DNA of 51,655 bases from an uncultured Pelagibacteraceae bacterium (GTDB lineage Bacteria > Pseudomonadota > Alphaproteobacteria > Pelagibacterales > Pelagibacteraceae). Shown here piece by piece: positions 34,029 to 51,655 of the stretch (within the stretch, counting starts at the first letter, position 1; the number at the start of each line of letters is the position of its first letter). The notes beneath the pieces are model-generated. The model searched no databases. It saw only the letters and a program-made list of their open reading frames with translations, and was not told the origin of the DNA. The position numbers were made by a program, and so were the translations under genes. The stretch spans positions 7,501-59,155 of the forward strand of contig CACIOK010000004.1 in NCBI GenBank assembly GCA_902588255.1. The letters are read 5' to 3'.

Positions 34029-34695
34029 AAAAATTTTTATCGCATGTGATACGAAAAGTATAAAAAAAATAAAAAAAATAATTAAAAATACACAGACAAG
34101 TAAGATAAAAATTGGTTATAAATTTGGATTAGAGTTTCTAAATTCGAAAAATGGAAGAATATTTATTTCAAAATTAAAAAATAAAATTACTTTTGGGGAT
34201 TATAAGTTTTCTGATATACCTAATACTTGTTCTTCGGCCCTAAAAGCAATCAAAGATCTCAAATTTGATTATTGTACAATTCATATTAGCGCAGGATTCG
34301 ATGCTTTAAAAGCTGCAAAAAAAACATCTGGTAGAACAAAATTAGTCGGAGTAACAATATTAAGTTCATTAGACAATAAGGCGCTAAAAGAAATTGGTTT
34401 TAATAAAGAAGTTAAAAAATTAGTTCTTCATCAAGCAAAATTAGCTACTAAAGCAAAGCTTGATGCTATTGTGTGTAGTCCTCAAGAAGCAAGTATGGTT
34501 AGAAAAGTATTTAAAAAAGAAATAATTACGCCAGGTATAAGATTACTTGGGGACAAAGTTAATGACCAAAAACGTATTACGACAGCAAAAAAAGCTTTCG
34601 ATAACGGTGCAACATCTATTGTTGTTGGGCGAAGTATAACAGCCAAGGGTAATATTAAAAATAATTTGAAAAAATTAATTCAGTCTTTAAAATAA
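34018..34695 (+). CDS. pyrF: orotidine 5'-phosphate decarboxylase
   Basis: FGDYKFSDIPNT, TPGIRLLGD, IVVGRSIT. Confidence 0.93.
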   Translation: MKNKKIFIACDTKSIKKIKKIIKNTQTSKIKIGYKFGLEFLNSKNGRIFISKLKNKITFGDYKFSDIPNTCSSALKAIKDLKFDYCTIHISAGFDALKAAKKTSGRTKLVGVTILSSLDNKALKEIGFNKEVKKLVLHQAKLATKAKLDAIVCSPQEASMVRKVFKKEIITPGIRLLGDKVNDQKRITTAKKAFDNGATSIVVGRSITAKGNIKNNLKKLIQSLK

Positions 34696-34699
34696 CAGA

Positions 34700-35323
34700 A
34701 TGATTATTAAGTGTTGTGGTCTAAACCCAACAAGAGACGTCCAGGTATGCCTTGATCTAAAGGTAGATTTTCTTGGATTTATTTTTTACGAAAAGTCCCC
34801 TAGAAATATAAAAATTTCTGACTTAGATATTTTGAATAATTATAATAGAAAAAGTGCATTATTTACAGCTGTCACGGTCGATGCAGATAATCAAATGATT
34901 GACCAAATCAGTTCTAAAAATATACAATGTTTGCAACTTCATGGTTCTGAAACTAATGAGCGAATTGGAGAAATAAAAAATAGATCAAAGCTTAAAATTA
35001 TAAAAACGATACAAGTTAGAAATGAAAATGACATCATAAAATACAAAAAATATATTAATGCTGATTATATATTGTTTGATACGCCTAGTATGGAAAAATC
35101 TATAGAATTTCCATCAAACCTGATACAGAAACTTCCAATTGGAAAAAACTTTGCTCTAGCAGGATCTATATCTGAACAGAATATAGAAAATATTGCAAAA
35201 TTAGGTATAAAGTGGTGTGATTTATCTTCTAAACTTGAGTCAAAATTAGGCTATAAAGATCACACAAAAATAAAAAAATTTATGAATAAAGTAAGATTAT
35301 TGAATGAAAATACCTCCTTTTAA
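34700..35323 (+). CDS. trpF: phosphoribosylanthranilate isomerase
   Basis: KCCGLNPTRDV, DFLGFIFYEKSPR, LQLHGSET. Confidence 0.93.
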   Translation: MIIKCCGLNPTRDVQVCLDLKVDFLGFIFYEKSPRNIKISDLDILNNYNRKSALFTAVTVDADNQMIDQISSKNIQCLQLHGSETNERIGEIKNRSKLKIIKTIQVRNENDIIKYKKYINADYILFDTPSMEKSIEFPSNLIQKLPIGKNFALAGSISEQNIENIAKLGIKWCDLSSKLESKLGYKDHTKIKKFMNKVRLLNENTSF

Positions 35324-36548
35324 AGAAATAAACCCTCCAAATAAAAATGGTTATTGGGTTAATAAAAAAAATGGTCAAGTATATGGTGGCGCCTACATCA
35401 GTCCACTTCTTATTCCAAATCTTGAAAGAGTAGAAAAAGGTTTTAAAAAAGCTTTAAAAGATAAAAAATTCATAAAAGGTCTTGAAGAACAATTATTAAA
35501 TTATATTGGTGTAAATACACCTATACTATTCAGTGAAGAGTTGACCGACCTAGCAGGAGGAAAGAATAAAATTGGAAAAATATTTTTAAAGCGAACAGAT
35601 TTACACCATGATAGTAGTCATAAACCCGTAAATGCTTTTAGTAGCTGTTATTTTGCTAAACATATTCTAAAAGTAAAGCGAATTATAACTGAAACCGGCG
35701 CATCAATGAATGCAAGGGCTGTAGCAGCAGCATGTGCAAAACTTGGTTTGGAATGCGAAGTACACATCGGTGCGGTAGATGAAGAAAAAGTCAATTTAAA
35801 TCGAAACATAACAGAATTATACGGTGCCAAAATTGTTGTAGTTCATGATTCAACAAAAACATTGCTGCCTGCAATGGCGTCTGCATTAAGAAGTTGGCAA
35901 AGTTCTCCGGACTCTATGTATGTTGTTGGAAGCGTAGCAGGACCACATCCTTATCCTCAGATGGTAAGAACTTGGGCAAGTATAATTGGTAGAATTGCTA
36001 AAAAACAATTTAAACAAATTACTGGAGGTGTTCCTTCAACTTTATTTGCGGTATGCGGAGGTGGATCCAATTTAATGTCGATGGCATACCCGCTACTAAA
36101 AGAAAGAACGAAGATTTTTGCTGTAGAGTCTGGAGGAGATGGAATTAAAACAGGAAGGCACGGTGCTACTATACTTGGTGGAGGCAAAATGGGAATTTTA
36201 CTTGGCATGAAGTCTAAAGTAGTGATGCATTCGTCTCAGATAGCTGAAAGTATTACTGAAGCCTCTGGGCTTGATTTCGCAAGTTGTGGACCTGAGGTAG
36301 CATATTTACATGATATTGGAAGAATTAAATTCTTGTCCTCAACAGATCTTGAAGCAAAAAAAACTTTTTTAATGTGTTCTAAGAAACTTGGAATTTTACC
36401 TGCAATTGAAGCTTGTTATGTAATTCATTCGGCCTTAAAAGAAATAAAAAAGCGAAAAAACCCAAGAGAAAATCATTTAATCCACTTATGTGGTTCAGGG
36501 GAATCTAATGTTACAAGAATGTTAAAATTTAAGAGAGAAAATGAATAA
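35304..36548 (+). CDS. trpB: tryptophan synthase beta subunit
   Basis: KRTDLHHDSSHKPVNAF, CGGGSNLMSM, HLCGSGES; divergent at the canonical HTGAHKIN motif. Confidence 0.93.
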   Translation: MKIPPFKEINPPNKNGYWVNKKNGQVYGGAYISPLLIPNLERVEKGFKKALKDKKFIKGLEEQLLNYIGVNTPILFSEELTDLAGGKNKIGKIFLKRTDLHHDSSHKPVNAFSSCYFAKHILKVKRIITETGASMNARAVAAACAKLGLECEVHIGAVDEEKVNLNRNITELYGAKIVVVHDSTKTLLPAMASALRSWQSSPDSMYVVGSVAGPHPYPQMVRTWASIIGRIAKKQFKQITGGVPSTLFAVCGGGSNLMSMAYPLLKERTKIFAVESGGDGIKTGRHGATILGGGKMGILLGMKSKVVMHSSQIAESITEASGLDFASCGPEVAYLHDIGRIKFLSSTDLEAKKTFLMCSKKLGILPAIEACYVIHSALKEIKKRKNPRENHLIHLCGSGESNVTRMLKFKRENE

Positions 36549-37350
36549 CGATTTAAAAAAAATATTTGATAAAGCAAAACTAGAAAAAAGAAGCTGCTTA
36601 ATTGGTTTTGTAACTGGAATAGATCCAGACTATAAAACTTCTAAAAAAATATTAATAGAAATGTCAAAGTACTGCGATGCGATAGAAGTAGGAAATCCAT
36701 TCAATACTAGCACAAGTGACTCATCAATTATAATGGATGCTAATACTAGGGCATTAAATTCTGGAGCAAATACTGGAAAAATTTTTAAACTTATAAAAGA
36801 AGTAAAATCTGAAATAAGAAAAGATATACCTTTTATAATTATGGGATATTTAAATCCAATTTATATCTACTCAATCAAAAAATTTGCAAAGAGTTGTAAA
36901 GATTCTAAGGTAAGTGGTTGTATTGTTGTTGATAGTAATAATAATGCTCCGGAGGATAAGGAAATTTTTACCTCACTTTCAAAAGTGAATGTATCTTATA
37001 TAAAATTAATCGCTCCAACTAATGGTGTTTCTTATATAAAAAAAAGTTTACTTAGATGTAGTTCTTTTCTCTATGTAGTGAGTATCGCGGGCACAACAGG
37101 TTCAAAGCAGGTAAACTTAAAAAATGTAAAAAAATCTATACAATTAGTTAGAAAAGTTTCAAAAATACCAATTGGAGTAGGATTTGGTATTAAAACTAAA
37201 GAGGATGTTTCAAAGGTTTCAAAAGTTGCAGATGCTGTAATAGTTGGTTCGGGTATTGTTGATATTATTGGTAAAAATACTAAAAATCATAATTTAACCA
37301 AAAAGATTGGTTCTTATCTGAAAAATTTAAAAAAAGGACTTAAAAAATAA
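36541..37350 (+). CDS. trpA: tryptophan synthase alpha subunit
   Basis: IEVGNPF..., YVVSIAGTTGSKQ; operon position. Confidence 0.9.
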   Translation: MNNDLKKIFDKAKLEKRSCLIGFVTGIDPDYKTSKKILIEMSKYCDAIEVGNPFNTSTSDSSIIMDANTRALNSGANTGKIFKLIKEVKSEIRKDIPFIIMGYLNPIYIYSIKKFAKSCKDSKVSGCIVVDSNNNAPEDKEIFTSLSKVNVSYIKLIAPTNGVSYIKKSLLRCSSFLYVVSIAGTTGSKQVNLKNVKKSIQLVRKVSKIPIGVGFGIKTKEDVSKVSKVADAVIVGSGIVDIIGKNTKNHNLTKKIGSYLKNLKKGLKK

Positions 37351-38292
37351 ATGAATTGGATCAGTAAAATTTTAAAAGTTGGTGAAAAAATAAAAACTAA
37401 TATTCAAAAAAAATTTCCAACTAAAAAACAACAATCTGAATCGAAATGGATTTCTTGTTGTTCAGAATATCCTAATTTAAAATCTGAAATTTTTAATGAA
37501 GAGCAACTTAATACCTGTCCTAGATGCGACAGGCATTATCCTTTCACACCTAGAGAACGGTTTAATCATTTTTTTGGCAAAAATAATTATGAAATATTAG
37601 ATACTCCACGTCCACCCGACAACCCTATTGATTGGCCTGATAAAATTTATGAAAAAAAATTAAAAAAAGCTAGAGAATTAACCGGGCATCATTGTGCTGT
37701 TATGGTTGCTCAAGGAAAAAGAGATGGGATAAAAATAACTTCATTCGCGATTGACAGCCGGTTCATTGGAGGATCTATTAATAATTCTTCCGGTGAAGCG
37801 ATTGTCAGTTGCTTTGCAAAAGCATTGGAAGATAAAACTCCTGTTTTGGGATGGAGTGAAGGTGGTGGACAGGCTATGTATCAATCAGGCATAGCATTAC
37901 AATTTATGGTAAAAACAGTTTTAGCAGCAAATACTTTCAAAAAAGAAAGTGGACAACCTTATATTAATATTTATACCAATAAAGTTTATGGAGGGATCAC
38001 AGCTTCTTTTGCGGCACCCTCTTTATCAGATATTGCTTTTTCGGAACCAAAAGGAACAATGATAGGATTTGCTGGACAAGCGATTGTGCGTAATCAAACT
38101 CGTGAAGAACTTAATTCTGATTTTCAAACCTCATCTCGAATGCTTGAGGTAGGTTTCGTTGATGCTATATTTCACAGAAAAGAAATTAATGATAAAATTA
38201 TGAATATCCTTAAGATATTGCTCCATAAAAAAAATAATGAATTTGAAGCTACAGACAATAATACAAAAATTAGAGAAAAAATTTCCGCGTAA
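37351..38292 (+). CDS. accD: acetyl-CoA carboxylase carboxyltransferase subunit beta
   Basis: CPRCDRHYPFTPRERF, SEGGGQAMYQS, PKGTMIGFAGQAIVRN. Confidence 0.93.
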   Translation: MNWISKILKVGEKIKTNIQKKFPTKKQQSESKWISCCSEYPNLKSEIFNEEQLNTCPRCDRHYPFTPRERFNHFFGKNNYEILDTPRPPDNPIDWPDKIYEKKLKKARELTGHHCAVMVAQGKRDGIKITSFAIDSRFIGGSINNSSGEAIVSCFAKALEDKTPVLGWSEGGGQAMYQSGIALQFMVKTVLAANTFKKESGQPYINIYTNKVYGGITASFAAPSLSDIAFSEPKGTMIGFAGQAIVRNQTREELNSDFQTSSRMLEVGFVDAIFHRKEINDKIMNILKILLHKKNNEFEATDNNTKIREKISA

Positions 38293-39511
38293 AATTGATT
38301 TAACTTTAGAACGTCAGCTTAAAATCCTTAAAAAACTTGGGAATCCACAAGATAAATTAGAACAAGTAATTTCAGTAGTCGGTACAAATTCAAAATTTAG
38401 TATTATACATACAATTTTTTCAATCTTAAAAGAATCGGATTATAAATGTAACTTATTTGTTTCTCCACATGTGCAAAGTTACTCGGAACGATTTATATTT
38501 AATAATGAGGAAATAGATGAAGAAAGTTTAGTAGATTTACTTGAAGATATAGAAAAAATTGTTGGAGAAGATAGTTGTACATTGTTTGAGGCACTTACAT
38601 GTGCTCACCTGAAATTTGCTGAAAATTATTCTAACAATATATCAATTTATGAAGCAGGAATGTTTCATTTTGCAGACTCAACTAATGTATTTAAAAAAAA
38701 CATTGCTAGTATACTGGGAACCTTTTCTTTGGATCATGTCCAATGGCTAAAAAATAAAACTATAGATGGGGTAATTTTTGAAAAAACTGCTAAATTATTA
38801 AATTCAAAAATATTCTTAAATAAACAAGAAAATAATGAAATTTTCAAAAAAGTTGAAAAAGCTTTATTAAAAAATAAGTCTGAAAAATATTTTTTTGGAA
38901 GAGATTTTAATATTTTAAAAGCAGAAAATAATTTTATTAAATATCAAGATGAGTTTGGTGAAATTATTTTGCCTAAACCTAAAAAAGTTTTAGGTGATCA
39001 TCAGCTATATAATATAAGCACCTCTATAGTGGCTTGTAGAAAGTTATTTAACATAAAAGATGAAGATATAAAAACAGCTATAAGTCAATTAAAGATTAAA
39101 GCTAGACTTGAGGAAATACATTCTGGAAAATTAAAGGACCTAGTTGGAAAAAACCGTTTAGTAATTGACTCTGGACACAATGTTGGTGCAGGTTTAGTTA
39201 TAGCGGATTGGATTAAATCTCAACAGGCAGATGTCCAAATAATATGTGGGATGATGCAAGATAAGTCTCATAGAGAATTTATAAATTTATTTAAGGATAT
39301 AGTTAAATCTATTACTTTAATTGACATCCCTAATCAAACTGGTTCGATAACTAAAGAAAATTTTAAAAATAAATTAAATGGAATAAATAAAGAAATTTAT
39401 TTATCTAATAGTATTCAAGAAAGCATCAAATCTGTTTCACAAAATGAAAACTCTATTTGTCTTATTGTTGGATCAATTTATTTAGCAGGCGAAGTTTTAA
39501 ATTTAAATTAA
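38237..39511 (+). CDS. folC: folylpolyglutamate/dihydrofolate synthase-like protein
   Basis: SVVGTNSKFS..., SPHVQSYSERF, DSGHNVGAG; overlaps accD by 56 nt. Confidence 0.88.
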   Translation: MNLKLQTIIQKLEKKFPRKIDLTLERQLKILKKLGNPQDKLEQVISVVGTNSKFSIIHTIFSILKESDYKCNLFVSPHVQSYSERFIFNNEEIDEESLVDLLEDIEKIVGEDSCTLFEALTCAHLKFAENYSNNISIYEAGMFHFADSTNVFKKNIASILGTFSLDHVQWLKNKTIDGVIFEKTAKLLNSKIFLNKQENNEIFKKVEKALLKNKSEKYFFGRDFNILKAENNFIKYQDEFGEIILPKPKKVLGDHQLYNISTSIVACRKLFNIKDEDIKTAISQLKIKARLEEIHSGKLKDLVGKNRLVIDSGHNVGAGLVIADWIKSQQADVQIICGMMQDKSHREFINLFKDIVKSITLIDIPNQTGSITKENFKNKLNGINKEIYLSNSIQESIKSVSQNENSICLIVGSIYLAGEVLNLN

Positions 39512-39883
39512 GAATTGTTTGATTTAACCCAGGCAATAAAATCACTTTCAGTTGTCATGCCGATTTTAGATGAAAGAACTTTTCCAGATCGCACATAAAA
39601 ACATGATGGAATTCCACGAACCATAAATTCAGATCTTATTCCGGCATTAGGATGTTGATCTATATCTAAAACTACAAAATCAATTTTAGACATTTCTGGC
39701 ATGTCAGAAATTTTAGAAACAATTGGAGAAAGTGTTTTACATGGACCTTTTAAAAATTTCCCCCTAACAAAAGTTAGGGGGTAATTAACCACACCATTCG
39801 GCCGTAAATCTACAAATTACGTCCTTGGTATTTTTCATCACCCTTTCTTCAAAATTTTCATCAGTTATATTGTGAACTGTCAT
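39508..39883 (-). CDS. trxA: thioredoxin, coding sequence interrupted by a 43-nt hairpin-containing insert inside the WCGPC motif
   Basis: MTVHNITDENFEERVMKNTKDVICRFTAEWCG (39883-39788) then TAA; protein resumes PCKTLSPIVSKISDMPEM... (39744-39508). Joined length 110 aa. Confidence 0.85.
39745..39790 (-). other. intervening hairpin element in trxA: GGT|TAATTA CCCCCTAAC TTTT GTTAGGGGG AAATTTTTAAAA|GGT
   Basis: Flanked by identical GGT Gly codons; stop TAA directly after the upstream GGT; perfect 9-bp stem with 4-nt loop (39760-39768/39773-39781). Confidence 0.8.
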
Positions 39884-39968
39884 TTATGATTTTTATATTC
39901 AATAAAATTATTTAATCAATGGGGAAAATTTACACTTTTAAAATAATTCACATCTAATAATTAAATAA

Positions 39969-41162
39969 CTAATTTAAATCTTTGTTTTCTTTTGCTTCAT
40001 TTTCCTCAAACTTAAGCAATTTGTCCTCTAATTCACTAGTTTTTGGAATAGGGTTTTTTGGATTTATGCCCTGTTCTTGTAATTTTTCAATTCTTTGTTC
40101 TAAACTTCCTTGGCCCTGCCAAGTCCCTTTAATGACATTTTGTAAATTTTTACCATGTGCATTGAAACTGGTCATTGTTTTTATAAGACTTGCTTTTACA
40201 AGTGAGTACTTGTCCATAAGATTGCTAGCTGTATCAGTAATCATTTTTACACCTTTTATTTGTTTTTCTTTATCCTGAATAGTTTGAACAATAGAAATTA
40301 TAGCTAACAAATTTTTAGGTCCCACTAGTAGTATATTTTTTTTATAAGCATACTCGTAAAGATCTGGAAAATGCTCTAGGGCAGATAAATAAGACGCTTC
40401 GTGGCACATATACATAATTACTTTTTGAAAAACTTTTTTCTTTATATTTTTCATGTATTCTTTTTTGGAAAGGCTATCGATATGTTTTTTGACAGCTAAA
40501 GCATGTTTTTTAAACTGCTCATCTTTTTCTTGGTCAGTTTTAGCATAAACAAATTTTTTCCAATTATCTAATGATACTTTCGAGTCACAAACAATATGAT
40601 TATCATCGATTAAATTTATATAGATATCTGGATTACCACTTTCTACAGTATCTTCATCTAGATTATGAACTTGCTCTTCTTTTTGCTTAGTATAATCAAT
40701 TCCTTTTTTGAAACCATGAAACTGTAAAGATTGCTCTAAGAATTTTTCTCCAAAATTTCCTTGATATTTTGCATTACCTGTAAGCTTATCAATAAAGTCC
40801 TGCTGCTTTTGTATCATGTTAGATTTATCTTTCGTATCAGTAGTTACAGCGGTTTTCCAAGCCTCAACATTTTTTAATGTTGAAAGAGTTATTTTTGAAC
40901 TTTCTCTCTCAGTTTTAAGTGTATTTTGTATGTTTTGTTTTATTTCTTCCATACTTGAAATTTTTTCTTTAAGTAAATTAATTTCGTTGTCACTTTCAAG
41001 TTTTACTCGTTCAATTTCATGATCTTTATCTTTTATTTCATCTTCCTTCAATCTTAGAGCTTCGTTTTCACTAGAGCTATCTTTCTTGTAAAAAAACTTT
41101 ATATAAAATATCCACAAAACAGACGTTACTAATGCTGTGATTAAAATTGTAATAATATTCAT
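39969..41162 (-). CDS. rmuC: DNA recombination protein RmuC
   Basis: N-terminal TM plus coiled coil, GNFGEKFLEQSL, NPDIYINLIDDNHIVCDSKVSL. Confidence 0.9.
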   Translation of the reverse strand: MNIITILITALVTSVLWIFYIKFFYKKDSSSENEALRLKEDEIKDKDHEIERVKLESDNEINLLKEKISSMEEIKQNIQNTLKTERESSKITLSTLKNVEAWKTAVTTDTKDKSNMIQKQQDFIDKLTGNAKYQGNFGEKFLEQSLQFHGFKKGIDYTKQKEEQVHNLDEDTVESGNPDIYINLIDDNHIVCDSKVSLDNWKKFVYAKTDQEKDEQFKKHALAVKKHIDSLSKKEYMKNIKKKVFQKVIMYMCHEASYLSALEHFPDLYEYAYKKNILLVGPKNLLAIISIVQTIQDKEKQIKGVKMITDTASNLMDKYSLVKASLIKTMTSFNAHGKNLQNVIKGTWQGQGSLEQRIEKLQEQGINPKNPIPKTSELEDKLLKFEENEAKENKDLN

Positions 41163-41175
41163 TTATTGATTCCGT

Positions 41176-41559
41176 TTATTGTATAGTATGATTTTCTGCG
41201 TCAGTTTTCAACTCAGGAAAGTTTTCTTTATGATATTCAGCTAGATTTTTTATCACCTCATTTGATGAAGCATCGTTAGCTTGTTTAAATAGTCCATAAG
41301 AAACGTTAAGGATTGTTCTTTGTTTTAAATGAAACAAAAAATGATAGTATGCAAAATCAGCACTAAGCTTTGATTCAACAACAAATGTATCAATCTCATC
41401 ACAGATTTTCCTTGCAAATTCATTGGTTCTTTTTCTTTCCTGCTCTTCTACACTTAATACTGGTTCAGCAGCTTCTATAGGTTTAACGCCTCTTCTTAAC
41501 GGAACAACATTTGATGCTTTTTTATTTTTCTGCTTACCTATTTTTTTAATTTTTGGCAT
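41176..41559 (-). CDS. hypothetical protein (likely start MPKIKK; longer ORF to 41604)
   Basis: ORF in island, basic N-terminus. Confidence 0.6.
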   Translation of the reverse strand: MPKIKKIGKQKNKKASNVVPLRRGVKPIEAAEPVLSVEEQERKRTNEFARKICDEIDTFVVESKLSADFAYYHFLFHLKQRTILNVSYGLFKQANDASSNEVIKNLAEYHKENFPELKTDAENHTIQ

Positions 41560-41863
41560 TATTTTTTCTCCTATTATTGATTTGTGGGTTGTTATACTTA
41601 TCAATTTCTTGTCTTATAACTTCAATCTCTTTCAAAGTTTTATTGTATTCAGAGTATTGTTTAATTTTGGACAAGAAACTCAGTGTATTACTGGGTAAAT
41701 TAATTAGTTTATAAATTAGATAAATTATTAAGTTTTTGCTAAATGTTTCTTTTTCAGCTTTTTCTCTTAATTCTCTAAATCTAAAAAATATTTCTATTTC
41801 TCTAATCCATTCTTGTCTTCGAGAAAGACAATCACTTAGAACGTAATAATATTTATCTTTCAT
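41546..41863 (-). CDS. hypothetical protein
   Basis: ORF, charged helical sequence; overlaps preceding gene. Confidence 0.5.
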   Translation of the reverse strand: MKDKYYYVLSDCLSRRQEWIREIEIFFRFRELREKAEKETFSKNLIIYLIYKLINLPSNTLSFLSKIKQYSEYNKTLKEIEVIRQEIDKYNNPQINNRRKNNAKN

Positions 41864-41976
41864 TTATTCCCTTTAAAATTGAAAGCCAGACCCTTACAGA
41901 AAGGAGTCAGAAAGAAAGGAAAAGAGCCTGACATTTCAATTAATATTAACATTATCATAACAATAACACATATAAT

Positions 41977-41993
41977 TACTGTTGTCAACAGTA
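41977..41993. promoter_or_regulatory. perfect operator-like palindrome TACTGTTG-T-CAACAGTA upstream of S24-like regulator
   Basis: 17-bp inverted repeat with 8-bp arms between divergent island genes. Confidence 0.6.
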
Positions 41994-42055
41994 AAAATAT
42001 TGCTTTACAAATTATTTTTACTTCTTTATAAAGTATATATAAAGAATCAATAAAA

Positions 42056-43201
42056 ATGACAATTAACAACGATTATAACCGAAAATTGCTGCTAGATTTA
42101 CTTAAACTATCTAAACTCAGCAAAAGACAATGTAGTTTTTTGCTAAATAAACATGAAAAGTCCTTAGATACTTATATTTATAAATTTGATGGTTTGGCAT
42201 TTCCTCCTAGCTTTGCTTACTTCTTTTTGAGCTCAATATGCGACACATCTCTACCGCTTTACGAAAGCCCTAATAAACCTGATTTTACTGATGGCAAAGG
42301 ATCTGTTCGAATAAAAAAATACAATTATTTTAAGAGAATTGATCATGTAGAAAAAAAAGAGTTTTTTGATCTTTTAAAAAAATGCAAAGACTTAGATATT
42401 AAAAGAAAATTGATTATACCTTGTGTTGAATATCACTGCCTTTTATTAATGAAATTATCTAACTCAGAATTTATTCATGACGAAAGTAATCTGTTGGAAG
42501 AATATATTAATCAAACCGTGCCTGAGGCCCAAGAATTTTTAAATGAATATCCTAATTTAGAGGATCCACATAATAGATCTATTGCAATTGAAAATGCACA
42601 CAGACATGTTCAGGCGCTTTCTTTAATAAGATCTATAAAAAACTTTTTTCCAGTTGTTGAAAAATTGAGAAAAAAATATATGCCAAATTTTGTTGCTCCA
42701 AATGAAACTTTTAAATTACCCGTTCTTAATTCAAGTGAAAAAATATTATTTTCGAAAGATTTTGTAAAAAGAAATTTGAATCTAAAAAAATATAATGATT
42801 TAGTTTTAATAAATGTTGGGGAAGATAATATGCAAGGTACTATAAATAAAGGTGATCTTGCATTAATAATTAAATTTGAAAAGAAAAATCGACCTATTTT
42901 TGAAAATGGAGTTTTTGCAATAAATTTAGATGGTAAAATTGTTATTCGAAGATTACAATTTTTACAATTTTCAAAAAGGACATTGGTACATATTATTTCA
43001 GATAATAAAAAATATATTGATGAACAAGTTTCATTAGAAGAATTAAAAGTATTTGGAGAGGTAGTTTGGAAATCTAGCAGCTTTCAAGATATTTACTTTC
43101 TTAAACATGAAGATGATATTCCTAATTTATTTTCTTCTGAAGAAGACATTGAGATACCAAAATTTCTAGAAGCAAAAAAAATAAAGAAAGAAATAGCTTA
43201 A
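42056..43201 (+). CDS. LexA/CI-like (S24 peptidase-fold) regulator, apparently lacking catalytic residues
   Basis: C-terminal ...LINVGEDNMQGTINKGDLALIIKF...GVFAINLDGKIVIRRLQ resembles S24 fold (G-D-S-M / V-K-R-L) with substitutions. Confidence 0.7.
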   Translation: MTINNDYNRKLLLDLLKLSKLSKRQCSFLLNKHEKSLDTYIYKFDGLAFPPSFAYFFLSSICDTSLPLYESPNKPDFTDGKGSVRIKKYNYFKRIDHVEKKEFFDLLKKCKDLDIKRKLIIPCVEYHCLLLMKLSNSEFIHDESNLLEEYINQTVPEAQEFLNEYPNLEDPHNRSIAIENAHRHVQALSLIRSIKNFFPVVEKLRKKYMPNFVAPNETFKLPVLNSSEKILFSKDFVKRNLNLKKYNDLVLINVGEDNMQGTINKGDLALIIKFEKKNRPIFENGVFAINLDGKIVIRRLQFLQFSKRTLVHIISDNKKYIDEQVSLEELKVFGEVVWKSSSFQDIYFLKHEDDIPNLFSSEEDIEIPKFLEAKKIKKEIA

Positions 43202-44641
43202 ATGAATTATATATTTTTTGATACTGAAACAAATTCAGGAAGATTAACAGCTGACATATTAACTTTATCTGCTTTTTTTTGTGACCAAAATTTTAACTTG
43301 ATTGAAGAGTTTAATTGTGAGGCGCGTTTAAGAACTTCAAGAATCTATGAAATAGATAGCTTTTTAGTGAATGGTTTAAATCCATACGATGTAGATAAAT
43401 TTTCAAACTCAAATTATGATCTTACAAAAAAAACCTATGATAAGTTTACTTCTTGGATTAATAAAGGCCCTGTTTTATTTGTGGCTCATAATGGCTATCT
43501 TTTTGATTATATGCTTTTCTCTCAACATTTATTTAGTAATCTTTTCACTTGGCCCTGGATATTTGGCACTGGAAATGCAAAACAAATAGATTCTCTTCCA
43601 ATTTTACAAAACTTTGATTTTTATCAACCAAATAAAATTGCAACAGAGTTAAATGATAGATCCAACAAAGTCTTCAAGCTCGGTAGTTTGTGCAAAATGA
43701 ATGGTTTTGATATTGGAAAAGACCTTCATACATCTAGAGGAGATGTGATTGGTATGAAAAATTTGATGACGCTTATCCATAATAAAAATCCTGAATTTTA
43801 TAAAAAGATTATTGGTTTTACCAACCCAAATAATGTTTTATCAAGTATGAAAGATGTAGATTATTTTTGTCATCCAGAAACATTTTATGGCAGGACTCGC
43901 CAGTTCACGTCGAGTTATATATGCGAGCATCCAATTTATAAAAGTTATCACTTGGTTGCCGATTTAAAACATGATTGGGAAAAGTTTTTATCCGAAAAAT
44001 CAGATCGTGTTCTAGATAAACTTTTAAATTCTGCTCCAAAAAAATATAGAACTATTAAAGCAAAAAAAAATCCCCTTATATTAGATAAATCTTTTTCAGC
44101 AAATCATAACGATGAATATTCAAAACTGGGTCATGAATTATTAAAAAGTAGAGCAGATTTTATTAAAAAAAATAGAAATGAACTTACGGTAAGAATTTGC
44201 AATATAATTAATGATAAATTTCAAGATAACAATGTAGATCAAACACCTTTAATCCCAGAACAAATGATATTTTCACTTAATCCTTCAACAGAAGAAAAAT
44301 CACTAATGAACAATTATGTTTTGTCGGATAATATTGATGATCATAGAAAAATTCATAAAAAATTTAAAGGTCCCATTAAACATTTGTCAGAAATGGCTCT
44401 TTTAGATAAGTATGATAAAGATGGTTTTACAGACGCTGACTATAAAAGAGTTAGAACTATTATAAGCAGAAGACTACTTTCAACAAATAAAGAAGTTTTT
44501 CCTACTATTCCTGAGGCAATGGAAAGAATAGATACTCTTAGAGAAAAAAACAAAGAAGAAAAAGAAAAAATGAAAATATTGCAAAATATTAATTCACACT
44601 TAGAAAAAGTCACTAAAGACCATGAAAAATACTTAAAATAA
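43202..44641 (+). CDS. DEDDh 3'-5' exonuclease, exodeoxyribonuclease I (SbcB)-like
   Basis: YIFFDTETNSG, SFLVNGLNPYDV, FVAHNGYLFDYML, LHTSRGDVIGMKNLM. Confidence 0.8.
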   Translation: MNYIFFDTETNSGRLTADILTLSAFFCDQNFNLIEEFNCEARLRTSRIYEIDSFLVNGLNPYDVDKFSNSNYDLTKKTYDKFTSWINKGPVLFVAHNGYLFDYMLFSQHLFSNLFTWPWIFGTGNAKQIDSLPILQNFDFYQPNKIATELNDRSNKVFKLGSLCKMNGFDIGKDLHTSRGDVIGMKNLMTLIHNKNPEFYKKIIGFTNPNNVLSSMKDVDYFCHPETFYGRTRQFTSSYICEHPIYKSYHLVADLKHDWEKFLSEKSDRVLDKLLNSAPKKYRTIKAKKNPLILDKSFSANHNDEYSKLGHELLKSRADFIKKNRNELTVRICNIINDKFQDNNVDQTPLIPEQMIFSLNPSTEEKSLMNNYVLSDNIDDHRKIHKKFKGPIKHLSEMALLDKYDKDGFTDADYKRVRTIISRRLLSTNKEVFPTIPEAMERIDTLREKNKEEKEKMKILQNINSHLEKVTKDHEKYLK

Positions 44642-44642
44642 T

Positions 44643-44843
44643 ATGACAATTCAAAAAGCTGAGAAGATAGAGATCGAAGTTCAAAAACAAACTATGGATC
44701 AACCTAGCTACAAATACCTAATTTTAATTAAATCTCAGAATGGAATAAATAAATTTCTTAAGCTCTTTACAACAAATGAAAAACCTATTTTAAAATTCTC
44801 TGAAGATAATGGCAGAATTGTAATTGATAAAACTAATGTGTAA
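44643..44843 (+). CDS. hypothetical protein (66 aa)
   Basis: Tightly packed ORF between two nuclease genes. Confidence 0.6.
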   Translation: MTIQKAEKIEIEVQKQTMDQPSYKYLILIKSQNGINKFLKLFTTNEKPILKFSEDNGRIVIDKTNV

Positions 44844-44846
44844 ATA

Positions 44847-45530
44847 ATGAATTGGAATATTAACAATCAATTTACTTATCCAAAATCAACTAGATCTATT
44901 TATAATGGGTCCAGGCATTATATGATTGATGGGGAAAGATTGCCTTCAGTCACAAATATCTTACAAAAAACTAAAAGTTTAGAAGATAAAGAGGCTTTGG
45001 AGAGATGGAAAAAAGAAAATAAAGATTCTGAGATTATAATGCGAGAGAGTAGTAATCGTGGAACACTTATGCACAACTACCTGTCTGAAATGATAATGGG
45101 CCGAATGAATGGTGAACTTATTGAAGAACTTAACTTACCAAAGAAAATGGCTGAAACTATAATCTCTAATGGAATAAATAATTATGTAAAAGAGGTTTAT
45201 GCCAGTGAGGAGTGTGTTTTTTTTCCCGGCAAATATGCCGGTACTATGGATGCTCTCATAAGTACAAATAACAACAAACTTCAAATTGTAGATTTTAAGC
45301 AAAAAAATTCACCAGCAAAAAGAGAGTGGAATTCAATCCGTGAGTATTTTACCCAAATCGTCTTATATGCCATGGCGCATAACGAAGTTTATGGTACAAA
45401 TATTCAATCTGGTATTATTTTAATGTGCACACCAAATTTAATTTTTCAAAAATTTGAAATAGAAGGTCAAGAATTTAAAGACATACAAGTTGAAGCCATG
45501 AAAAGAGTAGAAGATTTTCATAAATTATGA
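44847..45530 (+). CDS. PD-(D/E)XK exonuclease (RecB/MGME1-like, phage-type)
   Basis: RLPSVTNILQKT, RGTLMHNYLSEMI, FFPGKYAGTMDALI...LQIVDFKQKN...YFTQIVLYAMA: core D...D-x-K and Q motif. Confidence 0.78.
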   Translation: MNWNINNQFTYPKSTRSIYNGSRHYMIDGERLPSVTNILQKTKSLEDKEALERWKKENKDSEIIMRESSNRGTLMHNYLSEMIMGRMNGELIEELNLPKKMAETIISNGINNYVKEVYASEECVFFPGKYAGTMDALISTNNNKLQIVDFKQKNSPAKREWNSIREYFTQIVLYAMAHNEVYGTNIQSGIILMCTPNLIFQKFEIEGQEFKDIQVEAMKRVEDFHKL

Positions 45531-46087
45531 AAAAATATCAAAGAAGAATCGATGTAACTAATTCTGGTATAAAATATCAAGGCTACACAAAGGATGGTTT
45601 TTATTTTAAAGAAACAACTAGTATGTGGTGTTGGAAACAAGAATCAAAAGGAATAATACATGAGGCAAAGTCAATTGAGATTTTAAAAAAAATTAAAGAT
45701 AACGAATTTATAGGAAAAGGAAATTATGATCACTCCAAAACACATGATTATCAAAAATTTGAGGTAAAATCAGAATATCTTAATACTGAGGAATTTGGAG
45801 CAATTTCAAAAGTTGGTAGCAAAAACTATATAAGTATGCTTCTAAAAAGAGCAACAAGTGCAATAAATAAATATGACAAAAGATCTGAAGGTAGAAAAAA
45901 AAAAGGTCTATATTTTATTGATTGCCTAAAAAAAAGTAATATTGAATATTTACAAACGTATCCAATAAATATTTACAAAAATATTCAATTTAAAAATCAT
46001 TTAATAATGAAACAAAAAGTTTGGGTTTTTAAAAATGTAACTAATAAAAAAATCGAAAAATTTAAAAAATATTGGAATGAAAAATAA
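45527..46087 (+). CDS. hypothetical protein
   Basis: Overlapping ORF in island operon. Confidence 0.6.
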   Translation: MKKYQRRIDVTNSGIKYQGYTKDGFYFKETTSMWCWKQESKGIIHEAKSIEILKKIKDNEFIGKGNYDHSKTHDYQKFEVKSEYLNTEEFGAISKVGSKNYISMLLKRATSAINKYDKRSEGRKKKGLYFIDCLKKSNIEYLQTYPINIYKNIQFKNHLIMKQKVWVFKNVTNKKIEKFKKYWNEK

Positions 46088-46565
46088 AAAAAAAAGAAAA
46101 ATTCATAATACAATTAGAGATGCAACAGAAAATGATATAAAAAACTATAATGCACCCAAGAATACAAAATATAAAATAGTCTTTTCTAGCCCACAAGGTA
46201 AAACAAATATCCCAAAAAAATTTCAAGGCGCTCAATATTTTGCAACAAAAAAAGAAGCTGAAAATGCTTTAAATGAAAGACTTAACTTAACGCAAAAATT
46301 AAAAGAAAAAAAAAGTAAATCCATGATTAATAATAAAATAGCAGTGGGCAATTCTGGAAATGTTGAGTCTTTAATTAAAATTCAAAATGAAAGAACTAAC
46401 TTATATAATCAAAAAATAAATAAAGGTGTTAAACTACTAAATAAGGGACATACGGTAATGGAAGCCCAAAAAATAATTATAGAAGAGTTTAATTTAGATA
46501 TAAGTGAGGATTCAAGAACATTATTGCCTTGGATGTCGAAAGCTAGAGACAAAGCATTAAAATAG
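46077..46565 (+). CDS. hypothetical protein, possibly DNA-binding
   Basis: ORF in island operon; basic, overlaps the hisG 3' end by 9 nt. Confidence 0.6.
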   Translation: MKNKKKRKIHNTIRDATENDIKNYNAPKNTKYKIVFSSPQGKTNIPKKFQGAQYFATKKEAENALNERLNLTQKLKEKKSKSMINNKIAVGNSGNVESLIKIQNERTNLYNQKINKGVKLLNKGHTVMEAQKIIIEEFNLDISEDSRTLLPWMSKARDKALK

Positions 46566-47252
46566 ACTTAATATTTTCTTAATACCTTTTTTTTTCAAAC
46601 TTTTTTTGGCAACCATACAAGCAGCTGAAGATTTTAATATTAAACCATCTTTTTTAAGTGGGCGTAGGTCATTAGAAAAAAGTGTTTTTCCTGAACTAAC
46701 TATCTCTCCAATTAATTGTACTTGTGAAAGTCTAGGCATAGCTTCAGTTGCTCCCTTCGACTCTACAATTTCAACATTTTTAACATTTTTTTCTATTAAA
46801 AATTTTTCAACTAACCTCTTATATTTTGTACCAATTTTCAGAGGTTGTTTTTTATATTTAATAAAATCAGATGCAATTTCTGAAACATCTAACATAGTTT
46901 GACAATCCAAAAAATGAATAGGGCAACATATATATAAATCTGCATGTCCAAAATTTAAACTTTTATGCACCTTTATTTTTTTTTGAATATTAAGATCAGA
47001 ATCTTTTAATAAATCTATTCCTGATACACAAATATCTGCTGTACCATTTGTAAGTGCTTGTATCGATTCCCGTGCGTGTAGAAAAAGTATTCGAACTGTA
47101 GTATTAATTTTTTTTAAATTAATATAACCCACAAGATCTCTTTCTCCTTTATCAGATAAAATTTTTAATTTTTTTTTTTTAAAAATATTTATAGATTTTT
47201 CTCGCAAACGGCCCTTGGATGGGAGAATTATTGTAAATTGATTATTCATCAT
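46557..47252 (-). CDS. hisG: ATP phosphoribosyltransferase (short form)
   Basis: LPSKGRLREKSI, DICVSGIDLL, KGATEAMPRLSQVQLIGEIVSSGKT; adjacent hisZ. Confidence 0.93.
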   Translation of the reverse strand: MMNNQFTIILPSKGRLREKSINIFKKKKLKILSDKGERDLVGYINLKKINTTVRILFLHARESIQALTNGTADICVSGIDLLKDSDLNIQKKIKVHKSLNFGHADLYICCPIHFLDCQTMLDVSEIASDFIKYKKQPLKIGTKYKRLVEKFLIEKNVKNVEIVESKGATEAMPRLSQVQLIGEIVSSGKTLFSNDLRPLKKDGLILKSSAACMVAKKSLKKKGIKKILSLF

Positions 47253-48268
47253 ATAAAATTTATTGCACTTCCTACTGCTTTTATTGGTCTTAAACCTAAA
47301 GAAGAACTCATTTGATCAAATCTGCCTCCATTAATAATTTTAATATATTTATTTTTTTTTAAAAAATTAATAGAAAATACTAAGCCACTATATATCTCAA
47401 CATCAGGGATTTCAGAACTACAATATTCAATATTAAAATTTTTAAATTTGTTTTTTCTAATGGGAAAATAATCATCTGCAATTTTTATATTTAATTTATT
47501 TTTATCGAAAAATTCGCTTAATATTTTTGGAGCTTCCTCTATTGAACATTTGATCCTTAAAAATTTTTTAATTATTCTGGCACTTTTTTTTCCTTCTGGT
47601 GTCCTAGGATCTTTATTAATTTTCATATCAAATCTTTTTAGAATTTCATTTACAGTTCTTCCGGCAATAATTTTATTGGGGTCAAGTTTTTGCATTTTAT
47701 AGAATATTTTTTTATCTACTTTAATCTCGCCTTCATCTAAATCTTTATTTGTCTCTAACCTACTTAAAATTTCATAAAAATATTTCTGATTCCAAATATT
47801 CTGTACTAATCTTAATTTCCACCGATCTGGTATCTCCAATTGATTAACAAGAGAAAAAAATAACTCCAAGTTTCCAATTCTTAAATATCCTTTTTTATTA
47901 GTAATTTTTTTAAATACTACAATGCTATTTTTTAGCACCTCAAAATCATCAGTTTGGTTATTGGAATTATAGATTTCCCATCCAATCTGAGAAAGAATGT
48001 GTTTATTTTTTCTATACGACTCGCCTTTATAAAAAACTTTCTTTTTTTTTTTATTTTTAGTTTTAGAAAACTGTATTAAACTCATCAAACTAAGATCAGG
48101 ACGTAATGAGAAAGATACTCCCTTATCATCATTAAATGTAAATAAATATTTTTTTAGGTTAACCCCACGAATATACTTTGTTTCTATTACAGGATTTAAT
48201 TTAATCTCCCTGAAACCTTGTTTTCTAATATATTTAATTATTTTTGGTGATAAATTTTGTAACTGCAT
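47249..48268 (-). CDS. hisZ: ATP phosphoribosyltransferase regulatory subunit
   Basis: HisRS-like: SFSLRPDLSLMSLI, YKGESYRKN; paired with hisG short form. Confidence 0.85.
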   Translation of the reverse strand: MQLQNLSPKIIKYIRKQGFREIKLNPVIETKYIRGVNLKKYLFTFNDDKGVSFSLRPDLSLMSLIQFSKTKNKKKKKVFYKGESYRKNKHILSQIGWEIYNSNNQTDDFEVLKNSIVVFKKITNKKGYLRIGNLELFFSLVNQLEIPDRWKLRLVQNIWNQKYFYEILSRLETNKDLDEGEIKVDKKIFYKMQKLDPNKIIAGRTVNEILKRFDMKINKDPRTPEGKKSARIIKKFLRIKCSIEEAPKILSEFFDKNKLNIKIADDYFPIRKNKFKNFNIEYCSSEIPDVEIYSGLVFSINFLKKNKYIKIINGGRFDQMSSSLGLRPIKAVGSAINFI

Positions 48269-49628
48269 CTATTAAATCCTTTTTTGAAATTGTTAACTGA
48301 TTTTCCTCACCTTTTTTTAATAAAAGTTTCTTAATTGTGATTGTATTGTCTTTAAATTCGTTTTCTCCACAAATTATGGCCAACGGTAATTCTCTTTTGT
48401 TTGCGTATGTTAATTGTTTTCCAAGATTTTTTTTACTATCTAAATAAATTTCACTGTTTATCCCATTTGATCTTAATTCTTCTAAAATTTCATAATATTT
48501 TGATAAATACTTAGTATCCATAACACAAACTAAGACTGGTTTTTTTTCGTTAACATTTAGTTGATTTATTTCTGAAAGAATCGCCGTTAATCTCGTAACT
48601 CCAAAACTTATACCTACACCGGGTGTGGATAAACCTTTAAATGAACCAATCAAGTCCCGATATTCTCCGCCGCTGCAAATAGATAAACCACTTCCAAAAT
48701 TAGGAATATTCAACTCTGTTTCAACTAACCACCCTGAGTAATAATTGATCCCCCTAACCTTTTCGATACTTAACTTAATTTGATTAGAATATTTTCCGTA
48801 ATCAAGTATTTCTAATAATTTTTCTGTTTCCATTATTCCTTCTTTTGATAAAGGATTCTTAAAAACTGAACTTATTTCTTTTAAGTCTTTTAGTTGAAGG
48901 GAATTAATTATTGTTTCAATCTGAACATTTGAAAGATCTGCACCAATTGTAACTGCGCCTGATTTATCAACTCTTTTACTTCCTAACAAATCTTTTACAC
49001 CAGATATACCAATATTTGGATTGCTTAGTTTATCAATAGCTCTAAAAACTTTAAATTTTTGTTTTTCATCTGTTATTTTAAGATCGTTTATCAGTCCTTC
49101 AATTATTTTTCGATTACTTATACATATTTTAAATTGTTCTTTTTTAAAGTTTAATTTAAAAAGTGTGTCTGCAATCAAATTGCATAATTCGGCATTGGCC
49201 TGATATTTATCTACATTGCCTATTATATCACAATCAGCTTGTGTAAATGATTTTAGACGAATTTTTTTTTGTGGCTTTTCACGCCGTGCAACATCACCAA
49301 TGCAATAGCGTTTATAAATGGGTGGAAGCTCAAGATAGTTAGCTGCATACATTCGAGCCAAGCCTGCTGTCATGTCGTATCTATATGTCAATTGCTCTTT
49401 ACCATCTTCAAAAGAATAAACGTCTGCCATAGGGTTATTAGGATCGTCAGCAAGAAAGCTTCCAATATTTTCACTTCTTTCAAAAATTGATTGCTCTAGG
49501 GCTGAAAATCCAAAATTTATAAAATTATCTTCGATAATTTTAATTATATTTTTTTTTAGCTCTAGCGTATTTCCTTTATAATCTAGAAACCCACTTGGTA
49601 AGCTTGGTATTTTTTTGTCTTTACTCAT
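48234..49628 (-). CDS. hisS: histidyl-tRNA synthetase (start MSKDKKIPSLPSGFLDY)
   Basis: LTYRYDMTAGLARMYA, RYCIGDVARREKPQ..., YYSGWLVE; upstream ORF extension to 49673 is probably leader. Confidence 0.93.
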   Translation of the reverse strand: MSKDKKIPSLPSGFLDYKGNTLELKKNIIKIIEDNFINFGFSALEQSIFERSENIGSFLADDPNNPMADVYSFEDGKEQLTYRYDMTAGLARMYAANYLELPPIYKRYCIGDVARREKPQKKIRLKSFTQADCDIIGNVDKYQANAELCNLIADTLFKLNFKKEQFKICISNRKIIEGLINDLKITDEKQKFKVFRAIDKLSNPNIGISGVKDLLGSKRVDKSGAVTIGADLSNVQIETIINSLQLKDLKEISSVFKNPLSKEGIMETEKLLEILDYGKYSNQIKLSIEKVRGINYYSGWLVETELNIPNFGSGLSICSGGEYRDLIGSFKGLSTPGVGISFGVTRLTAILSEINQLNVNEKKPVLVCVMDTKYLSKYYEILEELRSNGINSEIYLDSKKNLGKQLTYANKRELPLAIICGENEFKDNTITIKKLLLKKGEENQLTISKKDLIDAVTKFITKNN

Positions 49629-49632
49629 TTTT

Positions 49633-49710
49633 GGTACCCGATTCCTTATTCGCAAAGGACCCTTTTCTTTCACAGAGAAATATGCTTCTACTACACCAAT
49701 CGGGCGTTCC
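49633..49710 (-). promoter_or_regulatory. candidate structured leader RNA upstream of hisS
   Basis: Minus strand GGAACGCCCGATT ... AAAGGGTCCTTT ... AATCGGGTACC: 7-bp closing stem CCCGATT/AATCGGG with an internal short hairpin; TATAAA-like box just upstream. Confidence 0.45.
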
Positions 49711-49874
49711 TTTCTTTTTATACTAATTGTTATTAAATTTAAATTTTTATATGATTAATATGATAGCATGCTACCATGGAAAATATGGTGTCTTTTTGAA
49801 CTTATAGAAATTGTAACATTTTTAATCATTGAGAAGTAAATAACACTTAAATTTTAAAATGCAAGAGGTTTGAG

Positions 49875-49915
49875 TAGGGATAAATATACTTAATGTTAAG
49901 TGGTATGTATCCCTA
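49875..49915 (-). terminator. hairpin downstream of cold shock gene (TAGGGATA...TATCCCTA with inner ACTTAA-TG-TTAAGT)
   Basis: Perfect 8-bp outer arms and 6-bp inner arms; 20 nt after the csp stop; no strong U-tract, so terminator role uncertain. Confidence 0.45.
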
Positions 49916-49936
49916 GTCAATTTTAGTGTATTAAAT

Positions 49937-50149
49937 TTAAGAAGTTTTCTTTAACTTAACTGCACTTGGGCCCTTTTCTGAATCTTCTATCTCAAACTCA
50001 AGTTCATCACCCTCATTTAAAAATCTAAGACCAGCGTCACGAACTGAACTCGCATGTACGAAACAATCCTTTTCACCGTCAGACCTTTCTATAAAGCCGT
50101 AGCCCTTTTTACCGTTGAACCACTTAACTTTTCCTTTTAATGTACTCAT
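49937..50149 (-). CDS. cold shock domain protein
   Basis: [31 protein letters not shown]. Confidence 0.96.
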
Positions 50150-50312
50150 ACTTATTTACTCTTTCTTCTTGTTGTTTACTTTTAGCTAATTTAACTAATA
50201 TTATTTTAGCTGGTGACTTAATAAATGATTTTGAATGTTTATGCAAGGTAAATGAATTTAGATTAATTAAAATTTTAAGCTTTATTTAAAATAGCAATTT
50301 ATTTTATAAGAA

Positions 50313-50387
50313 TGGTGGCCTTGGTTTGAATCGCACAAACGACACATACCTTTTCAGGGTACTGCTCTACTACTGAGCTACAAGGCC
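50313..50387 (-). tRNA. tRNA-Phe(GAA)
   Basis: Reverse complement GGCCTTGTAGCTCAGTAGTAGAGCAGTACCCTGAAAAGGTATGTGTCGTTTGTGCGATTCAAACCAAGGCCACCA; anticodon GAA. Confidence 0.95.
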
Positions 50388-50399
50388 AAAAACTAAAAA

Positions 50400-50669
50400 C
50401 TAAAACCTAAAAATAATTCTTCCTTTTGTCAAATCATAAGGAGTTACTTCTACAGTAACATTATCTCCAAATGTAAAAGAGTGACTAGCCCCTAACCCTA
50501 AAAGAGTTAGGGGCTAGCCCCCTTGTAAAACTCGAATTCTGTTTTTGCGCAGCTTGCCTGCTGTATGGGCTGTTACTATGTGCCCATTTTCTAATTCGAC
50601 ACGGAACATTGCATTTGGTAATAAATCAATAACCTTGCCTTTAAATTCCAATAAGTCTTGTTTTGACAG
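50400..50669 (-). CDS. infA: translation initiation factor IF-1, coding sequence interrupted by a hairpin-containing insert; apparent CTG start
   Basis: (CTG)[49 protein letters not shown] (50669-50520) then GGC TAG; resumes [22 protein letters not shown] (50468-50400). Confidence 0.88.
50466..50522 (-). other. intervening hairpin element in infA: GGG GGC|TAG CCCCTAAC TCTTTTAGG GTTAGGGG CTAG TCACTCTTTTACATTT|GGA
   Basis: Perfect 12-bp stem CTAGCCCCTAAC/GTTAGGGGCTAG (50485-50496/50506-50517) with 9-nt loop; stop TAG directly after GGC; conserved protein resumes at GGA. Confidence 0.8.
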
Positions 50670-50671
50670 AA

Positions 50672-51655
50672 CTATTTTCTCCTTATTCTAGATTTTATAC
50701 TTTGAGCATGACCATATAATTGTTCAAACTCGGAAAGAGTTATAGCTGGATTTCCAATTTTTTCTACCCCTAATTTACTAAGAGTAACAACTGATATTTT
50801 TTTAATAAATTCATTGATATTTAATCCAGAGCTAAATTTTGAAGATCCAGATGTGGGTAAAACATGGTTAGTGCCTACTGTATAGTCTGATACACTCATT
50901 GGTGTATATCTTCCATTACAAATACTTCCAACATTAAATATTTTTTTATCATATTTTTTATAATTTTTTACATTAATTTCTAAGTGCTCTGGAGCTATTT
51001 CATTAATTACGTTTAATATTTGTTTATCATTTTTTACAATAATTATTAATCCATTTTTTTTTAATGAAGTGGTTGCTATTTTTTTTCTTGGCAAGGTTTT
51101 CAAAATTTTAGTTATGCCTGTCTTAACCTTATTAATTATTTTTTTATCTTTTGTAATTAATATACATTGACTATCGGGGTCATGCTCTGCTTGAGAAACA
51201 ATTGAAGTTATTATTTGATTCACATCTGTTTTATTGTCAGCCAAAACACATATTTCTGAGGCGCCCGCATACATTGTTTCTGTTCCAATAATTTTTCCAG
51301 AAAGTTGTCTTTTAGCTTCAGCAACATATTTATTTCCAGGACCAATAACTTTATTTACTTTTTGAATATATGCAAAACTTGCGATTGCTTGTGCACCTCC
51401 CATTGAATAAATTTCTTTAATCCCCATTTTTTTTGCAGCATACAAAACTGCTGGATTTAATTTTCCATTAATTTTTGGTGTCGCTAAAATAATTTTTTTA
51501 ACTCCTGCTATTTTTGCAGGAATAGAATTCATAAGAAGAGTTGATGGAAGATTTCCAGGTACATAAATTCCTACAGACTCTATTGGAACGCTTCTATATT
51601 CTAATTTATTTTTAAATTTATCAAAATATACAATTTTTTCTCTTAAGCCTTTGAT
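50672..51655 (-). CDS. hisD: histidinol dehydrogenase (5' end beyond window)
   Basis: [40 protein letters not shown]; frame open through the window end ([14 protein letters not shown]...[19 protein letters not shown]). Confidence 0.95.

Follow-up and report, generated by a model that had tools for sequence, protein, structure and literature searches.

How a thioredoxin gene can be cut inside its own active site and show no further damage is the question raised by the trxA locus of the window, that is, the whole stretch of 51,655 nucleotides of SAR11 (Pelagibacteraceae) DNA that was analysed. A sequence-only reading of this DNA had claimed that the gene is split within the WCGPC motif by a 43-nt insert flanked by matched GGT codons and containing an immediate TAA and a 9-bp GC-rich hairpin, and had likened the arrangement to the ribosomal bypassing of phage T4 gene 60. 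The minus strand (39883-39508) agrees with this description of the split, as it reads ...GCC GAA TGG TGT GGT TAA TTA CCCCCTAAC TTTT GTTAGGGGG AAATTTTTAAAA GGT CCA TGT AAA..., and the locus can be divided into the following parts:

39788..39883, minus strand, upstream part of trxA (codons 1-32), ending TGG TGT GGT, with the putative take-off codon GGT at 39788-39790
39748..39787, minus strand, gap of 40 nt that opens with an in-frame TAA and is absent from an intact relative
39760..39781, minus strand, trxA hairpin with a 9-bp stem, CCCCCTAAC TTTT GTTAGGGGG, genome-unique within 3 mismatches
39745..39747, minus strand, putative landing (resume) codon GGT, the same as the take-off codon
39508..39744, minus strand, downstream part of trxA, PCK... 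to the stop, without further lesion

The two GGT codons are separated by 40 nt, or by 43 nt if one codon is counted, so that the frame is shifted, and joining one to the other restores, as had been proposed, a full thioredoxin of 110 aa (Pfam PF00085, E 6.6e-21), the flanks of which are otherwise undecayed. The boundaries of the insert, which the same reading had wished to see defined from related trxA genes, follow from the nearest relative with an intact copy (G331, protein 55% identical), where an empty site is found: its unbroken TGGTGTGGTCCATGTAAA is identical to the joined sequence of the window's genome, and the insert is therefore exactly 43 nt. The claim that the gap breaks the frame was upheld for its 40 nt and had to be refined in one respect, namely that the downstream frame stays open back through the insert (ORF 39508-39792), so that an uninterrupted product could come from a +1 frameshift as well, although its active site would then contain extra residues. 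A second copy of the hairpin was not found at up to 3 mismatches in the 901-kb genome, nor was another stop-bearing trxA seen among the matches listed for 399 genomes of the same genus.

The hairpin nevertheless has a counterpart within the window. A scan for perfect stems of at least 8 bp with at least 5 G/C pairs returned two hairpins in the window, whereas each of 20 shuffles gave 0 or 1, which bears out the earlier remark that the 9-bp stem is conspicuous; one of the two is that of trxA and the other interrupts infA, the gene for IF1, at a Gly codon, reading CAA GGG GGC TAG CCCCTAAC TCTTTTAGG GTTAGGGG CTAGTCACTCTTTTACATTT GGA GAT AAT, where the 8-nt core arms are shown. The CCCCTAAC/GTTAGGGG core is common to the trxA and infA hairpins and no others of such kind were found in the genome, while the pattern CCCNRAC(3-10)GTYNGGG occurs twice in it, compared to 0.05 expected from shuffles, and interrupts a gene both times. 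The parts of infA are:

50520..50669, minus strand, upstream part of infA (codons 1-50), start CTG, ending CAA GGG
50469..50519, minus strand, gap of 51 nt made up of GGC TAG, an extended hairpin CTAGCCCCTAAC...GTTAGGGGCTAG and a tail, absent in G289
50485..50517, minus strand, infA hairpin with a 12-bp perfect stem, its 8-nt core shared with that of trxA
50466..50468, minus strand, putative landing (resume) codon GGA
50400..50465, minus strand, downstream part of infA, 21 aa and a stop, under purifying selection among split copies

The start codon (50667-50669, minus strand) is apparently CTG in this genome and TTG in relatives. The assembly holds one infA only, the split copy, and the empty site (CAA GGC GAT) is seen in G289, a genome that shares 99.3% identity with the window's genome in hisD. 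In a comparison of the 48 contigs of this assembly with the proteome of a complete relative (G322), infA was the sole clear hairpin-split gene besides trxA, and the reverse control, in which the open reading frames of the window's genome were set against G322, gave no comparable split gene.

The interrupted infA is not confined to one genome. A match to infA was obtained in 318 of the 399 genomes of the genus, and the gene is split in seven of these, i.e. the window's genome (G000) and six others, where the match is likewise broken in two and a stop lies at the junction or close to it. The inserts lie at two codons, site A (Gly50) in G000, G247, G298 and G182, and site B (Arg41) in G077, G129, G182 and G338, with G182 carrying both. 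In a wider sample of the order, a further genome of the same genus (G513, 91% complete) had its infA match in two pieces, and outside the genus all 69 genomes with an infA match had a single one. The counts of insert anatomy given here refer to the seven genomes that were read, with eight infA inserts, G513 being left out. The split genomes are fragmentary (52-91% complete), and no second, intact infA was found in the assembly of any of them; near relatives show empty infA sites. On a hisD tree the split genomes do not form one group and at least 4-5 changes are needed, so that gains, losses or transfers have to be invoked, and the split state appears to have spread by recombination or by repeated insertion.

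All of these inserts follow a common plan, in which the interrupted codon is succeeded by 6 nt, a C-rich stem arm, a linker or tail of ~6-10 nt and the resume codon, the take-off codon, the 6 nt and the C-rich stem being constant throughout. Counting one codon, the infA inserts measure 54, 50, 50, 53, 47, 47, 47 and 44 nt and the trxA insert 43 nt, and removal of the gap gives an IF1 of 71 aa in all seven split genomes. Since the lengths vary modulo 3, stops are present in most frames and the incoming frame of every insert is stopped, neither readthrough nor a single frameshift offers a general solution. The interrupted and resume codons are GGT/GGT in trxA, GGG to GGA or GGT at site A, and AGG/AGA (two genomes), CGG/TGA (G129) and CGG/AGA (G338) at site B, and the interruption has the same codon phase at all three sites. 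A stop stands directly 3' of the take-off codon in trxA (GGT TAA) and is the second codon (GGC TAG/TAA) in seven of the eight infA inserts, that of G338 having no stop until ten codons in. Each element folds as one hairpin that starts at or within ~6 nt of the take-off codon, with folding energies of -22 to -34 kcal/mol for infA and -18 kcal/mol for trxA, and the infA hairpin takes in or adjoins the interrupted codon. Compensatory changes affect two stem pairs at site A and one at site B, and these three pairs, changed on both sides with pairing kept, lend modest support to continued selection on the split genes. The elements of G247 and G298 are identical, and those of G077 and G182 at site B agree at 49 of 50 positions while infA pS is 0.55, a conservation that fits functional constraint or recent transfer. 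A Shine-Dalgarno-like motif before the landing codon was not found in these inserts, the tails being AT-rich or ACACC without GAG/GGAG, and no known nascent-peptide signal was seen. Beyond the inserts the coding sequence is under purifying selection: the codons that follow show three synonymous and no non-synonymous differences between G247 and G298, and eight synonymous and one non-synonymous after site A between G000 and G182, and pN/pS of infA past the insert does not exceed 0.28 (site A) or 0.24 (site B).

These observations can be weighed against the simplest explanation, i.e. that the genes are dead or dying, the hairpins being insertion lesions and the proteins either unmade or provided by unsequenced copies. 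The genomes are incomplete, and intact copies may be missing from the assemblies; moreover, the trxA hairpin, followed by AAATTTTT, resembles an intrinsic terminator, and there is a single split trxA, whose divergence is no separate proof of selection after the insertion. On the other hand, the genus has a single copy of infA, which in seven species stays split without other lesion, the element itself is conserved and the downstream codons are under purifying selection, and the probability that all seven assemblies miss a hidden intact infA is about 1e-4 when it is calculated from their completeness values with absence treated as random. IF1 is essential in the bacteria that have been studied. 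Because joining always gives a 71-aa IF1, and because of the purifying selection past the stops and the compensatory stems, a pseudogene or assembly error does not explain infA, and for the loci as a whole gene death is considered unlikely, ranking behind the excision from RNA discussed below. An artefact of sequencing, amplification or assembly is the least probable of all explanations: the genome is indeed in fragments, with the end of contig C4 falling within hisD and close to what looks like a recombination breakpoint, but like inserts with covarying stems occur at the same two infA codons in seven separate assemblies, and G247 and G298 have one identical element. Hardly more credible is readthrough or +1 frameshifting through the insert, which would give proteins with 14-18 extra residues. 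The 54-nt infA insert of G000, with its one in-frame TAG, could by readthrough produce an IF1 with ~18 extra residues, and the open downstream frame of trxA would permit a +1 frameshift; however, the other infA inserts are not multiples of three and have stops in both the incoming and the outgoing frames, and in thioredoxin the extra residues would fall between the active-site cysteines.

Excision at the RNA level would require very small introns to be cut from the mRNA, with the hairpin serving for recognition and the exon junction lying behind the second base of the interrupted codon. Joining after the first two codon bases would produce the right protein in all copies, including the unmatched G129 and G338, the latter of which also shows that an early stop is dispensable, and a long stem would bring the ends close together. 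The inserts would then represent a new class of ~45-nt hairpin introns in bacterial mRNA, excised independently of RtcB and interrupting an essential translation-factor gene; to our knowledge, no bacterial mRNA intron of such size has been described. This explanation is judged improbable, yet ahead of gene death. The ligase RtcB, on which the best-known alternative route of splicing depends, was found in none of 26 SAR11 genomes, split or not (among them all seven split ones that were read, and 17 at least 90% complete), while the control was positive in 9 of 14. Searches against Rfam gave only rRNA and tRNA in the window, with no group I/II or other intron family, and nothing relevant in a permissive scan of the infA region. 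There is, furthermore, little fixed sequence at the ends, the stem apart, and an intron blind to phase need show neither the same codon phase at three sites nor an in-frame stop in nearly all inserts.

The proposal of bypassing as in T4 gene 60 has been sustained in part: skipping of the gap is much likelier than a dead gene, in view of the second interrupted gene of the window, the six further split infA, the conserved architecture and the purifying selection past the stops, with the ribosome the more probable and RNA splicing the less probable agent of the skipping. For infA the evidence speaks best for gap skipping, a reading that extends to trxA by association, and the sequences indicate that the cells probably have ribosomes or RNA processing able to skip the insert. 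On balance, it is rather likely that the trxA insert belongs to a SAR11 (Pelagibacteraceae) family of hairpin inserts of ~43-54 nt in core genes, above all infA, and that these are skipped in expression, most likely by the ribosome. The inserts, their common layout, their lack in relatives, their recurrence and the purifying selection past the stops are observed, whereas the production of full-length protein, its dependence on the ribosome and not on RNA processing, and a like behaviour of trxA and infA are inferred.

In such bypassing, the ribosome would pause while its peptidyl-tRNA occupies the final codon ahead of the hairpin (GGT in trxA, GGG at site A, AGG or CGG at site B), the hairpin would fold at or over this take-off codon, near a stop codon, the peptidyl-tRNA would detach while the hairpin takes up mRNA, and the tRNA would re-pair ~6-10 nt past the stem on a Gly or Arg codon, leading to a full-length protein. 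Bypassing is favoured over RNA excision because the gap size, the Gly codons, the nearby in-frame stop and the take-off stem resemble those of T4 gene 60, because the gaps (40-51 nt) are below the 56 nt up to which sliding of the T4 gene 60 type is efficient (PMC11194080), because all three sites share one codon phase, and because RtcB was found in none of the 26 SAR11 genomes checked. Counting against it are the poor re-pairing matches of CGG to TGA (G129) and CGG to AGA (G338), the lack of an early stop in G338, the shift of the infA stop by one codon and the lack of a Shine-Dalgarno-like motif. Mismatched take-off and landing pairs have been reported in the yeast mitochondrial system too, and the Shine-Dalgarno-like motif that lies ~6 nt before the landing site of T4 has a modest effect only (PMC5009743). 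The trxA insert, in turn, is a single case, and its kinship to the infA inserts rests on the 8-nt stem core and the layout, while CCCCAAC/GTTGGGG stems occur widely in the genus in ordinary hairpins too.

Comparison with known systems places the SAR11 inserts close to, and not squarely within, established categories. With T4 gene 60 they share a non-coding gap of similar size (50 nt in T4 and 40-51 nt in SAR11), Gly codons for take-off and landing (in trxA and at site A of infA), in most of the inserts a stop at or close to the take-off codon, and a stem-loop that begins there (PMC5009743, PMC3014915). Unlike the phage gene, they reside in bacterial housekeeping genes, in several genomes and at several sites, in infA the hairpin is longer and the stop comes after one more codon, the codons of site B are for Arg and are unmatched in two genomes, and neither a Shine-Dalgarno-like motif before landing nor a known nascent-peptide signal is present. 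The byp elements of Magnusiomyces capitatus mitochondria are likewise short inserts dispersed over sites and genes and are corrected at translation, but they number 81 in 12 of 15 genes, compared to one or two inserts detected per SAR11 genome, belong to a mitochondrion with relaxed decoding and not to free-living bacteria, and seem independent of mRNA context, whereas the SAR11 inserts all have a conserved stem; in the comparison of the G322 proteome with the window's genome, infA as the only clear case, plus trxA, fell short of such abundance. The terminator-like CCCCAAC/GTTGGGG hairpins of the genus have a similar stem core, and the trxA hairpin with its AAATTTTT resembles them, but the infA hairpins have CTAG extensions and no T-run, and they occupy conserved codons of a coding sequence. 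Conserved genes are also interrupted, at conserved residues, by group I/II introns, inteins and insertion sequences; the SAR11 inserts are, however, far too small, match no Rfam intron, have no open reading frame through most of them and correspond to no multicopy element in the genome. The inserts may work like a known process, but some features that define the T4 system are missing or only partly present, and they are not proven members of the T4 type.

Efficient bypassing of long non-coding gaps has so far been established in a single phage gene and in the mitochondria of one yeast group; for chromosomal genes of bacteria, the one report cited in a review has seen little follow-up (PMC5009743), and the limited, open-access literature searched contained no description of such elements in SAR11. 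If the ribosomal interpretation is true, bypassing is used by ordinary cells, namely by bacteria that are very abundant in the ocean, and in a gene that is essential; its natural variants, which comprise two sites, several species and both matched and unmatched codons, are at hand for dissecting the mechanism, and gene callers may throw out working genes as broken.

With regard to the origin of the inserts, the stem-core pattern is present in 135 of the 399 genomes of the genus, with many copies of the CCCCAACAATGTTGGGG type, so that the core alone is not diagnostic of inserts; CCCCAAC/GTTGGGG may be a stem preferred in terminators, and the inserts may descend from it. The T4 gap perhaps began as a defence against a homing endonuclease (PMC5009743); extending this to SAR11 would be a guess, hinted at by the conserved target sites alone. 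Among viral contigs the trxA hairpin had no exact match, and the CTAG-extended pattern, encountered in three related GC-rich phage contigs, forms an intergenic hairpin there and was set aside as unrelated.

Both inserts lie in one block of the window (~34.5-51 kb) whose genes are far more divergent from G322 (roughly 25-60%) than are most of the others in the window (mostly 60-78%). This block (34500-51000), with trpA, accD, folC, trxA, rmuC, his genes, tRNAs and infA, looks replaced or fast-recombining. At 50400-50720, a hisD that is 99.3% identical to that of G289 adjoins a downstream infA and tRNA-Phe of another lineage, and the switch reflects either recombination, with its breakpoint here, or a chimeric join close to the end of the contig. 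The tRNA-His and tRNA-Phe genes (49635-49705 and 50313-50387, minus strand) are strongly unlike those of close relatives; tRNA-His was missed by ARAGORN and found by Rfam at 45.5 bits, and the tRNA-Phe next to infA varies greatly across the genus. The interval between trxA and hisG (42056-46562) encodes an S24-peptidase-like, an exonuclease I-like and a PD-(D/E)XK-like nuclease protein, together with two proteins without a Pfam match. Elsewhere in the genome, a histidine kinase (contig C16, ~3000-3130) was considered as a third case and rejected, with A-runs and no hairpin at the lesion; it has two in-frame TAA codons in an A-rich linker, and both of its flanks are conserved.
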